From NCBI GenBank assembly GCA_030037595.1, contig JASHQJ010000043.1, positions 1 through 36,178 of the forward strand: a DNA stretch of 36,178 nt, in the 5' to 3' direction. Shown in pieces: positions 25,698-33,178 of this stretch; position 1 is the stretch's first letter; every line of letters begins with the position of its first letter. Source of the DNA: Candidatus Binataceae bacterium. Its GTDB lineage: Bacteria; Desulfobacterota; Binatia; Binatales; Binataceae. The position numbers were made by a program, and so were the translations under genes. The notes below the pieces were generated by a model, which was not told where the DNA came from, ran no database searches, and saw only the letters and a list, made by a program, of their open reading frames with translations.

Positions 25698-25796
25698 GGC
25701 GACGGTGATGATGTGTACCACCGCGCCTGGCCGACGCAGGCCTCGCACGCCCGCGAACTGATCGCATCCGCGTGAAATCTCTTGAAGGAGAATAAA

Positions 25797-27296
25797 ATGG
25801 CAGCAGTTCCATCAATTGAACGCGCCGCGCATGGCGTTACGTCGAGCGCGGTCCTCGATTTTCTGAAACGCCCGAAGAACCTGCTGATCGGCGGCAAATG
25901 GGTGCCGGCCAAGTCGGGCAAGCAGTTCGAGACTATCAATCCGGCCAACGAAGAAGTGCTGGCTCTTGTTCCTGAGGGCGACAAGGCTGACGTTGACGAG
26001 GCAGTCAAAATCGCGCGCCAGGCGTACGAAGAGGGTCCGTGGTCGAGAATCGGGCCGCATCAGCGCGCGCGCTATCTGCTCAAGATCGCGGACCTCCTCG
26101 AGCAGCACGCCGACGAACTCGCGATTCTCGAGACGCTCAACAATGGAATGGCGATTTCGCTCGCGCGCGGAATGGCTTCAGGAGCGGCCGATACCTTCCG
26201 CTACTACGCCGGCTGGGCAACCAAGATTTACGGCGAGACCAACCCGTCCGATCCCTCGATGTTCAATTACACGCTGCGGGAGCCGGTTGGAGTGTGCGGG
26301 CAGATAATTCCGTGGAACGGACCGATCGCGATGCTCGCGTGGAAGATCGCGCCCGCGCTCGCGTGCGGAAACGTTTCGATTCTGAAGCCCGCCGAGCAGA
26401 CTCCGCTCACTGCTCTTCGTATCGGTGAACTGCTGCAGGAAGTGGACCTTCCTCCGGGCGTCGTTAACATCATCACCGGCTTCGGCGAGACGGCGGGCGC
26501 CGCGATCGCGGCGCATCCCGACATCGACAAGGTCGCGTTCACCGGATCAACCGAGGTCGGCAAGCTGATTCTGCAGGCCTCGACGGGGAATCTGAAGCGC
26601 GTGTCGCTCGAGCTGGGCGGCAAGTCGCCGAACGTGATTTTCCCCGACGCCGATCTCGAAAACGCGATACCGACCTCGCTGTTCGGGTTCTGCATGCTTT
26701 CCGGCCAGGTTTGCTGCGCGGGCACGCGAGTCTTCGTGCAGAGCGACTTCCACGATCGCTTTGTCGAGCACCTGACGCGATATGCATCGAACGTAAAGGC
26801 AGGAGATCCGCTCGATGCCAGCACGACGGTCGGACCGCTGGTGTCGAGGGAGCAATTCAACCGAGTCAAGGGCTACCTTGATATCGGCAAGAAAGAGGGC
26901 GCGAAGCCGGCGCTGGGCGGCGAAGCGCGGACCGGAAAAGGATTCTTTGTTGATCCCACGATCTTCACCGACGTGCGGAACAACATGCAGATCGCGCGCG
27001 AAGAAATATTCGGCCCGGTCGCCTCGGTCATACCGTTCAAAGACGAGAACGACGCGGTCCTCCAGGGCAACGATACTACCTACGGGCTCGCTGCCGCCGT
27101 CTGGACGCAGGACATCAGCCGCGCCCACCGGATCGCGCGCGCATTGAAGGCCGGCACGGTCTGGATCAACTGCTACAACAATATCGATCCGATCTCGCCA
27201 TTCGGCGGCTACAAGCAATCCGGCATCGGCCGCGAGCTAGGCAAGCATTCGATCGAACTCTACACGCAGATCAAGTCCGTTTACGCAAAGCTGTAG
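25797..27296 (+). CDS. aldehyde dehydrogenase, paralogue 2
   Basis: PWNGP, FTGSTEVGKLI, LELGGKSPN, GQVCCAGTR; RBS GAAGGAG. Confidence 0.93.
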   Translation: MAAVPSIERAAHGVTSSAVLDFLKRPKNLLIGGKWVPAKSGKQFETINPANEEVLALVPEGDKADVDEAVKIARQAYEEGPWSRIGPHQRARYLLKIADLLEQHADELAILETLNNGMAISLARGMASGAADTFRYYAGWATKIYGETNPSDPSMFNYTLREPVGVCGQIIPWNGPIAMLAWKIAPALACGNVSILKPAEQTPLTALRIGELLQEVDLPPGVVNIITGFGETAGAAIAAHPDIDKVAFTGSTEVGKLILQASTGNLKRVSLELGGKSPNVIFPDADLENAIPTSLFGFCMLSGQVCCAGTRVFVQSDFHDRFVEHLTRYASNVKAGDPLDASTTVGPLVSREQFNRVKGYLDIGKKEGAKPALGGEARTGKGFFVDPTIFTDVRNNMQIAREEIFGPVASVIPFKDENDAVLQGNDTTYGLAAAVWTQDISRAHRIARALKAGTVWINCYNNIDPISPFGGYKQSGIGRELGKHSIELYTQIKSVYAKL

Positions 27297-27326
27297 AGAA
27301 CCCGAACTACTACGGAGGAAGCAAAG

Positions 27327-28832
27327 ATGAGCGCAACACCATCTGTCGAAATCGCCGCCCGGGGAGCAAAGTCGCCTGCGGCATTGGAATTTCTCAAAAA
27401 GGGTCCGACCAAATTGCTGATCGGCGGGAAATGGGTTCCTGCCAAATCGGGCAAGACCTTCGAGACCATCAACCCTGCCAACGAAGAGGTTCTCGCGCTC
27501 GTCGCGGAAGGCGACAAGGCTGACGTCGATGATGCCGTGAAAGCGGCGCGCAAGGCGTTCGAGGACAACCGCTGGGCGGGAATGAGTCCGCACGCGCGCA
27601 CGCGCTACCTCCTTAAGATAGCGGACCTGATCGAAGCCCATGCCGATGAGCTGGCCGAGCTCGAATCGCTGGACAACGGAAAGCCGCTGTCGCAGGCCCG
27701 CACGATCGACATCCCGGGCTCGGCGCGACTGTTCCAGTACTTCGCGGGATGGGCGAGCAAGATCTACGGCGAGACCAATCCGTCCGATCCGTCGATGTTC
27801 AATTACACGCTGCGGGAACCGATTGGCGTGTGCGGCCTGATCACACCGTGGAACTTCCCGCTGATGATGGCGTCGCAAAAGATCGCTCCCGCGCTCGCTT
27901 GCGGCAACACTGTGGTGTTGAAGCCGGCGGAGCAGACGCCGCTCACGGCGCTGCGCCTCGGCGAGCTGATCCAGGAGGCAGGATTGCCTGACGGGGTGGT
28001 GAACATCGTGACCGGATTCGGTCCGGGCGCGGGCAGCTCAATCTCCGAGCATCCCGATATCGACAAGGTGAGCTTCACCGGGTCGACCGAAGTCGGCAAG
28101 ATGATCCTGCAGGCATCGGCCGGCAACCTGAAGCGCGTGTCGCTCGAGCTGGGCGGCAAATCGCCGAATGTGATCCTGCCCGATGCGGACCTCGAGCAGG
28201 CTGTTCCCACCGCAATGAACGGAGTGTTCTTCAACTCCGGGCAGGTGTGCGCGGCCGGCACGCGGATTTTCGTTCAGCGCGAAATGTACGACAAATTCGT
28301 GGACCAGTTCGCAAAGGCGAGTGAGCGCATGACCGTGGGCAACCCGCTTGATCCGAAGACCCGCCTGGGGCCGCTGGTGTCGCGCGAGCAGTTCGAGCGG
28401 GTTAACAACTATCTCAATGTTGGGCAGCAAGAGGGCGCCAAGATCGCGATGGGCGGCGGTGCGACCGAAGGCAAGGGCTACTTCATCAAGCCGACGCTCT
28501 TTACCGGCGTGACCAATCGCATGCGCATCGCGCGCGAGGAAATCTTCGGCCCGGTCGCGGCGGCCATTCCCTTCAAGGATGAATCGGACGCGGTCTTCCA
28601 GGCCAACGACACCACCTATGGGCTTGCGGCCGCAGTGTGGACGCGCGATATCAGCCGCGCCCACAAGATTGCGCGCGCGCTCAAGGCCGGCACGGTCTGG
28701 ATCAACTGCTATGGTGCGGGCGACTCGAGCATGCCGTTCGGCGGCTACAAGCAGTCAGGCTTTGGCCGTGAGAATGGACGCCACGCGCTCGACCTGTTCA
28801 CTCAGATCAAGTCGGTGTATGTGAAGCTGTAA
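27327..28832 (+). CDS. aldehyde dehydrogenase, paralogue 3
   Basis: PWNFP, FTGSTEVGKMI, LELGGKSPN, GQVCAAGTR; RBS GGAGG; 30 bp after paralogue 2. Confidence 0.93.
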   Translation: MSATPSVEIAARGAKSPAALEFLKKGPTKLLIGGKWVPAKSGKTFETINPANEEVLALVAEGDKADVDDAVKAARKAFEDNRWAGMSPHARTRYLLKIADLIEAHADELAELESLDNGKPLSQARTIDIPGSARLFQYFAGWASKIYGETNPSDPSMFNYTLREPIGVCGLITPWNFPLMMASQKIAPALACGNTVVLKPAEQTPLTALRLGELIQEAGLPDGVVNIVTGFGPGAGSSISEHPDIDKVSFTGSTEVGKMILQASAGNLKRVSLELGGKSPNVILPDADLEQAVPTAMNGVFFNSGQVCAAGTRIFVQREMYDKFVDQFAKASERMTVGNPLDPKTRLGPLVSREQFERVNNYLNVGQQEGAKIAMGGGATEGKGYFIKPTLFTGVTNRMRIAREEIFGPVAAAIPFKDESDAVFQANDTTYGLAAAVWTRDISRAHKIARALKAGTVWINCYGAGDSSMPFGGYKQSGFGRENGRHALDLFTQIKSVYVKL

Positions 28833-29660: not shown

Positions 29661-30650
29661 TTAGCGGCCGAGCTTTGCGAACAAGTCGTCTTCGGCTTTC
29701 GCCAATGCTGATTCGAGCACCTCGCCGAGGAGTCGATTGAACGTTGGCGAGCCCGCGGCCTGTTCACCGGCCCATCGCTTCGCAAAGGTGCCGTCACGAA
29801 TTTCCTTGATCGCCTTCAGCATCAGCGCTTCCGCATTGGGGCCGATAAAATCCGCGCCGTGCGTGAGCTGGCCGAACTGGCTCGTATGCGAATGCAGTTT
29901 GAGCTGCTTCCAGAACCCGCGCGCCGCCATCGCATGCCCGATCTCGCCGAGCTCGCCCGAGGCATATAGCTCGAGCAGCGCGACCTCAGGGCTGACTCCC
30001 GCCTCGGTCAGGAGCTTGAACGCACGCTCCAGCAGAAAGAGCATCGCACCCGCCCACGTGTGCTCGGAGAAAAGATCGACGAGCGTTTCCTCCTCGAAGC
30101 TCGATTCGACGACGGCGCCGTGCGGCATGAACGCGCCGATTCCCTGCGCGATCGCAAGCATCCTCGCGAGCGCATTCCCCGATGCGTCCTGCTTGACGCC
30201 GACCAGCACGGGGAATCCTTCGCCGCGCGCTGGCAAATCGAGAACGCCCTGGCCGATCATCCGCGGCGCGACCAGAACTACGTCAACGTCAGCGGGCGGC
30301 GTGATAAACTTGTAGGTGATGTTGTAGCCGCTCGCGAACACGAGAGTCTTGGCGGCCTTTAGGTGCGGCGCGATATCGCGGCGGTAAATCTCGGGCGCGA
30401 TTTCATCCGGCAGGAGCAGCAGGATCACGTCGGCGCGCGCGGCAGCATGGTCCATCGTGAAGGTCTCGAAGCCGTCGCTTTTCGCCTGGCGAAAGCTGTC
30501 GTCCTCGACGTTGCCGACGATCACATGATGTCCCGCGCGGCGAAGATTGATCGCCTGCGAGCGTCCCTGGTTGCCGTAGCCGATAATCGCGAGCGTCTTG
30601 CCGCTCAGGATCGCCGGGTTCGCGTCTTTCGCCGAGTGGAATTTCGCCAT
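29661..30650 (-). CDS. ketol-acid reductoisomerase-like protein with altered active site
   Basis: N-terminal Rossmann IIGYGNQGRSQAINLRRAG, LLLPDEIAPEIY, PPADVDVVLVAPR, EETLVDLFSEH and KARI-like C-terminus, but usual HG(F/Y)NI is SGYNI. Confidence 0.72.
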   Translation of the reverse strand: MAKFHSAKDANPAILSGKTLAIIGYGNQGRSQAINLRRAGHHVIVGNVEDDSFRQAKSDGFETFTMDHAAARADVILLLLPDEIAPEIYRRDIAPHLKAAKTLVFASGYNITYKFITPPADVDVVLVAPRMIGQGVLDLPARGEGFPVLVGVKQDASGNALARMLAIAQGIGAFMPHGAVVESSFEEETLVDLFSEHTWAGAMLFLLERAFKLLTEAGVSPEVALLELYASGELGEIGHAMAARGFWKQLKLHSHTSQFGQLTHGADFIGPNAEALMLKAIKEIRDGTFAKRWAGEQAAGSPTFNRLLGEVLESALAKAEDDLFAKLGR

Positions 30651-30780: not shown

Positions 30781-31655
30781 ATGGCGAATCGCGGCGCGGG
30801 CGGGACGGCGATCGGCGCGGCAATATGCCGCCTGAACGAACAGTATGAACTCCCGGCGATAGGGCGATAGGGCTTTTCAACGATCCTGTTATCGAGGCGA
30901 TTGTCGCGTGGCCGATTAAAGCGGCGACGCGATTTTCCAGCGTGCGGAATTTCTTCCTCTGAAAAACTGAGGAAATCGGGGAGGTAGACGGCGCGCTGGT
31001 CTGCCGCGTTCGCTACGACGACGACTTGCTTGCCGCTGCAATGTCGGAACGAATCGAGCAGTTAGTGATTCTCGGTGTGGGTCTGGATACGCGCGCCGAT
31101 CGTCTGCCACAAATCGACAAGATGCGGGTCTTCGAAGTCGAACTGCCTGAGCCACAGAAAGACAAGAAGGCAAAGCTCGCGAAGTATCTCGGCAGTCTGC
31201 CGCCGAACGTCATGTTCGTTCCGATCGATTTCAACACGCAGACCCTGGAAAGCGTCTTCGTGGGCACACCCATTCGATTCATCGAAGCGCGCGGTCTTCA
31301 TCTGGGAAGGAGTGACGCAGTACATTACCGAGGATGCCATGCGCCGGACGCGCGCGTTCGTTGGAAAATCGGCTCCCGGCGGAGAATCGCTTTCACCGAG
31401 GTGCTAAAGAGCGTCATTGATGGCAATTCGGATGTTCCGGGTGCGCGGCGCCTGATGACCGAAGTCGCGAAGCAAGGCGCACCGTGGATCTTCGGCCTCG
31501 ATCCGACGTGCATCGGCGAGTATTTGGAGCCGTTTCAGCTCGTGTTGAAAGCAGATGTCACGAGCACCGACTATCAGGGGCGCTATCTCAGGCCGATTAA
31601 CCACAAGCCGGCCGTATCCGAGTGCCAGCGCATTGCGGCGGCGGTTGTGCGATGA
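30781..31655 (+). pseudogene. disrupted SAM-dependent methyltransferase of the leucine carboxyl methyltransferase-like (PPM1/TIGR00027-type) family
   Basis: Collinear fragments in two frames: MANRGAGGTAIGAAICRLNEQYELPAIG / LFNDPVIEAIVAWPIKAATRFSSVRNFFL*KTEEIGEVDGALVCRVRYDDDLL / VILGVGLDTRADRL / VFIWEGVTQYITEDAMRRT / IAFTEVLKSVIDG. Lesions: 8-bp tandem duplication 30855-30870, TGA 30960-30962, frame changes near 31265 and 31390. Confidence 0.8.
30855..30870. repeat. exact 8-bp tandem duplication GGCGATAG x2
   Basis: GGCGATAGGGCGATAG read directly; deleting one copy restores the reading frame. Confidence 0.9.
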
Positions 31656-32347: not shown

Positions 32348-33178
32348 ATGGAGAGTATCGAAGGCCGGCGCGCCGCGTTGGCCGAACTTCACGAATCCGG
32401 ATGCTTCGTCATTCCGAATCCGTGGGATATCGGCACGGCGCACTTCCTCAAGCGTCTTGGGTTTCGCGCGCTCGCCACGACTAGTGCGGGCTATCAGTTC
32501 GCGCGAGGCAAAGCTGACACGGTTTGCGGCTCGACGTGTGACGAGCTGCTCGCGCACCTTGCGGAAATCGTCGCGGCGACCGATCTGCCGGGAACGCGGA
32601 TTTCCAGTCCGGCTACGTGCAGGATCCGCAAGGTGTCGCGGCGAACGTAGCGCGATGCGTCGATGCCGGCGTCGCGGGTCTCTCAATCGAAGACGCCACG
32701 GAGAACCGGGACAACTCTACGACCTGCCGCTGGCGATACGGCGTATCAAGGCGGCTCGCGCCGCGATCGACGGCAAAAAAGTTCAGGTGCTGCTCGTCGC
32801 TCGAGCTGAGTGCTACCTCGTGGGTCACCCCGAGCCGCTGAAGGATGCGCTCAAGCGGCTGACAGCATACGCGGCGGCGGGTGCGGACGTTCTCTACGCG
32901 CCGGGGCCTCGCACGCGCGAGGAGATCCGCGAGATCGTGCGGGCGGTGGCGCCGCAGCCGAGCAACGCGATCGTGATGGTGAATTTCGGAATCACGGTGG
33001 CGGAACTGGCAGACCTCGCGTGCGGCGAATCAGCGTCGGCTCGGCGCTCGCGCGCACGGCGTGGGGCGCATTCATCAGGGCGGCGAAAGCGATCAGGGAG
33101 AAGGGGAGTTTCGAGGGCTTTGATGATGCCGCGCCGTTTCAGCTTTTGAATGGGGTGTTCGAGGAGCAACGGAGGTAG
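32348..33178 (+). pseudogene. frameshifted isocitrate lyase/PEP mutase superfamily protein
   Basis: Collinear fragments in three frames: GCFVIPNPWDIGTAHFLKRLGFRALATTSAGYQFARG / VQDPQGVAANVARCVDAGVAGLSIEDATENRD / LYDLPLAIRRIKAARAAID...YAPGPRTREEI / RRISVGSALARTAWGAFIRAAK; frame changes near 32591, 32710 and 33018. Confidence 0.85.

Follow-up and report, generated by a model that had tools for sequence, protein, structure and literature searches.

The window, the whole stretch of DNA analysed here (36,178 nucleotides from a Candidatus Binataceae bacterium), carries on its minus strand, at 29661-30650, a gene for a class I ketol-acid reductoisomerase (KARI) homologue, a remodelled paralogue of IlvC. 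It represents a genuine, widely distributed variant of the known KARI family. A role other than routine synthesis of branched-chain amino acids (BCAA) is supported, because a canonical ilvC is present alongside, BCAA genes are rare near its relatives, and several of these lie in sugar-acid operons. As to what it does, the reading we favour, at about even chances, is an oxidoreductase of hydroxy and keto acids that depends on Mg2+ and NAD(H) and serves sugar-acid metabolism, standing apart from valine and isoleucine synthesis.

The reading frame runs intact from ATG to stop over 329 aa, and placement of the product as an IlvC/KARI variant is secure. The earlier note had proposed a comparison with domain models; both domains match, KARI_N at 1.3e-53 (181 bits) and KARI_C at 1.3e-28 (101 bits), each above the Pfam cut-off. 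The equivalog models divide: the protein passes the ilvC cut-off of TIGR00465 (239.3 vs 226.15 bits) and fails that of PRK05479 (264 vs 336). Within its family the gene is patchy (8 of 35 members), the 7 other genomes having orthologues 65-87% identical to it; against these Binataceae-type orthologues dN is 0.08-0.15 and dS 0.5-1.2, and the window gene is under purifying selection. A frame error or pseudogene was considered, and rejected on the low dN/dS together with the open frames of all orthologues.

Active site and cofactor loop

Residues were compared in an alignment of 90 rows, 76 from the clade and 14 canonical; the relatives had been collected by searching for either of two peptides, GYGNQGR or VAPRM, which biases the sample towards those residues. 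As the earlier note had seen, the catalytic His is gone: canonical HGFN reads SGYN in the window protein, with S107 (30330-30332, minus strand) in place of the His, and this position is Ser in 65 and His in 11 of the 76 clade rows. It had also seen that canonical APKGPGH reads APRMIGQG. Here R130-M131 (30258-30263, minus strand) replace the K-G of APKGPG, with Arg for K130 in 75/76 and Met for G131 in 76/76 clade rows; the window protein thus lacks both the catalytic-segment His and the Lys of the IlvC family. The first metal-ligand pair, D192...E196 (30063-30077, minus strand), is retained as stated: E188, D192, E196 and E233 are invariant in the alignment, and the ligand roles of the first-pair residues are assigned after PMC8615647.

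The second metal-ligand pair had been thought lost, but it is present. ELYASGEL aligns with canonical ECxxHE when A230-S231 are placed opposite gaps, and E227 and E233 are kept as an E-x5-E with a two-residue insertion (29952-29972, minus strand). E227 occurs in 74 and E233 in all of the 76 clade rows, both Glu in 14/14 canonical rows, and S231 of the insertion is invariant; all four metal-ligand carboxylates (D192, E196, E227 and E233) are kept in the window protein. A structural check, also suggested earlier, likewise goes against the loss: an AF2 model built from 59 sequences of the protein's own clade (pLDDT 97.2) has its helix interrupted at S231-G232, between the two Glu, and the 51%-identical Sso-KARI has been solved with Mg2+.

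A further feature of the clade is the segment HSxTSQ[FY]G (29871-29894, minus strand), in which position 253 is His in 76/76 clade rows where canonical proteins have Ile or Val; S254 is conserved, and Ser replaces A257 and Gln replaces E258 in every clade row. The alignment that the earlier note had named as telling against its reading, one with an alternative His and both Glu ligands in place, is very nearly what was found, given the invariant H253 and the pair E227/E233. Its chemical argument for another substrate accordingly keeps the replaced His and Lys, and is weakened by the intact Glu ligands and the alternative His. With its APRM, its E-x5-E and invariant S231, its HSxTSQ and its D50, the window protein belongs with the remodelled clade. 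Canonical class I KARI, such as the host's own IlvC, shares the fold, both Mg2+ ligand pairs and S254/T256/G260, and differs in His107, Lys130-Gly131, E-x3-E, Ile253, Glu258 and an NADP-type loop.

The corresponding loop of the window protein reads N47-V-E-D50 (NxxD; 30501-30512, minus strand); D50 is found in 75/76 clade rows, and canonical position 47 is Leu. The same spacing occurs in BurG, a KARI-fold cyclopropanol synthase of malleicyprol biosynthesis that reduces hydroxypyruvate with NADH, and whose Asn48/Asp51 serve for NAD and keep out the NADP phosphate (PMC9359912). Because of this parallel the window protein may prefer NAD(H); the suggestion is not firm, because Sso-KARI has the same loop yet is reported to be bispecific. 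BurG is comparable in other ways, as a KARI paralogue diverted from BCAA synthesis with a Mg2+ pair kept (PMC9359912), but the window protein is no nearer to it than to other KARIs: identity in the structural match is 31-32%, against about 50% for Sso-KARI, and the gene context differs.

The clade and its surroundings

In a maximum-likelihood tree all remodelled proteins stand apart from canonical IlvC with support of 100/100. The clade spans many phyla of both Bacteria and Archaea; a single scan confirmed at least 541 relatives. A subgroup from Bathyarchaeota, Armatimonadota, Chloroflexota and Verrucomicrobiota keeps the His, as AHGYN; as it already has APRM and E-x5-E, the His change is not the defining step of the clade. 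A search of the literature for a described KARI-like subfamily of this kind gave no usable account.

The tree places within the clade one protein of solved structure, Sso-KARI, the ‘putative ketol-acid reductoisomerase 2’ of the archaeal thermophile Saccharolobus solfataricus (PDB 6JCV, 6JCZ, 6JD2). Its entries are the best PDB matches to the AF2 model (about 50% identity) and, by sequence, the only ones in the clade's score range (492 bits; next 353). Identity to the window protein holds over the full length, and FASGYN, APRM, E-x5-E, HSxTSQ and NxxD are common to both. The matched entries contain Mg2+ at pH 8.5 and at pH 7.5, and also Mg2+ with NADPH and a further ligand. By its title, the publication describes a KARI with cofactor bispecificity; in the accessible part of the literature text no discussion of the remodelled motifs or of a catabolic context was found. 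As a protein with these very motifs has been solved with Mg2+, NADPH and ligand, loss of KARI chemistry should not be read from the sequence; and as it was published as a bispecific KARI, both NADPH use and activity on acetolactate may have been kept.

Most carriers have a canonical enzyme as well. The search for one in the host genome that the earlier note had proposed finds it on C485, 38% identical to the window protein. Across 110 genomes of the class, each KARI place was scored by both models and the types separated cleanly: the main clade type occurs in 13 genomes and a shorter, divergent type in 6, and a second, canonical KARI accompanies them in 18 of the 19, the exception being G039. 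In other phyla, a second KARI was found in 37 of 50 sampled carriers, all 5 named isolates among them. Many carriers are incomplete MAGs, which bears on the 13/50, and on G039, in which a canonical KARI was not seen.

The G039 genome is 99% complete, and its one KARI match (locus L024) belongs to the remodelled clade and is short and divergent. As it carries ilvB and ilvD, a part in BCAA synthesis is conceivable for that lineage; as 3/110 class genomes lack any KARI match, the missing canonical gene may be a gap.

Gene neighbourhoods separate the two types. With ilvB, ilvN, ilvD, leuA and leuB as probes within 7 kb, BCAA genes lie near 20/21 canonical loci (most of them in genomes that also have clade loci) and near 2/42 clade loci, L055 and L064; a third nominal match, at the Compostibacillus locus L090, is the xylonate dehydratase. 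Canonical genes adjoin ilvN, leuA or ilvB, unlike the window gene: no ilv or leu gene was found among its examined neighbours, as the earlier note had said. The H19 plasmid gene, which lies in an ilvB-ilvD operon, was examined as a clade member and rejected, as it is canonical. On one archaeal contig (L064 and L151) a clade member of the His type and a canonical ilvC lie about 3.4 kb apart, and ilvB and ilvN are close by.

Probes for sugar-acid genes match 10/42 clade loci and 0/21 canonical loci, a test that is partly circular in that 5 of the 10 positive loci supplied probes, so that the independent comparison is 5 loci against 0/21. The clearest operons are those of Compostibacillus, Halomarina, Haladaptatus, Sulfitobacter and Faecalicatena. 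In Compostibacillus the KARI-like gene is in company with genes for an aldonate dehydratase, PfkB, an FAH-family protein, alpha-ketoglutarate semialdehyde dehydrogenase and xylonate dehydratase, the last two exceeding the cut-offs of their models. The Halomarina and Haladaptatus loci have several MR/MLE dehydratases and a sugar ABC system; that of Sulfitobacter has TRAP, glycerate kinase, GntR and ALDH genes, and that of Faecalicatena GntR/FCD and a GntP permease. About half of the clade loci match no sugar or sugar-acid probe and have no informative neighbour. Around the Binataceae members a conserved operon was sought and not found: the neighbours vary, with an M24 peptidase in the window, MsrA in a sister genome and a convergent SDR in several relatives. 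Taken with the canonical ilvC of the host and of most carriers, the neighbourhoods of the clade favour the non-BCAA role that the earlier note had argued for.

Proposed function and its rivals

How might such an enzyme work? On the oxidoreductase reading, two Mg2+ ions would be bound through D192, E196, E227 and E233 of the KARI fold, and NAD(H) would be favoured through the N47xxD50 loop. The reaction would turn a 2-hydroxy acid of sugar or sugar-acid origin into a 2-keto acid, or the reverse; the alpha-oxygen functions of the substrate would bridge both Mg2+ ions while hydride passes to or from NAD(H); and H253 and Q258, with S107 and R130, would stand in for the canonical His/Lys proton-handling set. 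KARI combines two steps, an alkyl migration that depends on Mg2+ and the reduction of a 2-keto acid, and site-directed mutants of the E. coli enzyme, in work of Tyagi et al. from 2005, reportedly lose migration and keep reduction. For an enzyme with both Mg2+ sites intact and the His and Lys replaced, the simplest reading is a plain NAD(H)-linked oxidoreduction between the 2-hydroxy and 2-keto forms of a sugar acid. For the window enzyme, the preference for NAD, the chemistry of a reductase or dehydrogenase and the class of substrate are all inferred; the substrate in Binataceae would follow from distant relatives only, because a conserved operon is lacking there.

A bolder reading, which we think rather unlikely, makes this a pan-prokaryotic KARI-fold family with an undescribed NAD-linked isomerisation or redox step on sugar acids, feeding adjacent dehydratases of IlvD/EDD or enolase type. 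If true, sugar-acid breakdown would have taken over the two-enzyme scheme of valine synthesis, in which a 2,3-dihydroxy acid is first made and then dehydrated.

The strongest competitor, doubtful though of real weight, is a second, functionally ordinary KARI, a BCAA isoenzyme in which Ser, Arg and the relocated His have taken over from the canonical His and Lys. The four metal ligands and the TIGR00465 score agree with this, as does Sso-KARI, named a KARI and solved with its ligands; because it was so published, isomerase activity may be retained in the window enzyme too. G039, with ilvB, ilvD and a divergent clade member only, and L064, near ilvB/ilvN and a canonical ilvC, point the same way. 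However, the host and most carriers already have a canonical ilvC, just 2/42 clade loci have BCAA neighbours, the protein is under the PRK05479 cut-off, and the lack of a canonical gene in G039 may reflect a gap.

A migration on another substrate, a hydroxymethyl shift with NAD(H) by a branched sugar-acid oxidoisomerase or reductoisomerase, seems improbable. The KARI fold with both Mg2+ sites would suit it, relatives adjoin sugar-acid operons, and such a reaction, analogous to that of D-apionate oxidoisomerase, reportedly has a precedent in work of Carter et al. from 2018; but no branched-sugar pathway genes were identified in this analysis. D-apionate oxidoisomerase, ApnO, would on this proposal resemble the window protein in an NAD-linked migration on a sugar acid, and presumably belongs to another family of the 6PGDH superfamily. 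Replacement of PanE as ketopantoate reductase is very improbable: canonical KARI does reduce ketopantoate as a side activity, but the gene is patchy in its family, the canonical ilvC alongside already has that activity, and no pantothenate genes were recognised nearby. A decaying, non-catalytic paralogue would account for the lost His and Lys, but it is scarcely credible given low dN/dS, frames open in all orthologues and active-site residues invariant across phyla.

Naming of the clade and other genes of the window

The clade is systematically annotated as ilvC. Plasmid members (L135, L136, L137 and L138) are labelled ilvC with valine/isoleucine GO terms, and the TIGR00465 cut-off of 226.15 lies below the scores of the clade, 253-285 for the plasmid members scanned and 239 for the window protein. 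As TIGR00465/PGAP-style naming confers both the name and those terms, metabolic models at genome scale may give these genes a wrong role. Sso-KARI, used for cryo-EM enzymology of the BCAA enzyme, is itself a member of the clade. At stake are the need for the canonical His and Lys in the isomerase half-reaction and a possible new step of sugar-acid catabolism.

Elsewhere in the window, a PEP-mutase/isocitrate-lyase-like gene (32348-33149, plus strand) lies across two frames, by a frameshift or a MAG assembly error. A methyltransferase ORF (31026-31655, plus strand) matches only positions 72-145 of the 259-position TIGR00027 and looks truncated or frameshifted. Two tandem aldehyde dehydrogenase genes occupy 25782-28832 on the plus strand, adjoined on the opposite strand by a xanthine-dehydrogenase-type molybdenum subunit.
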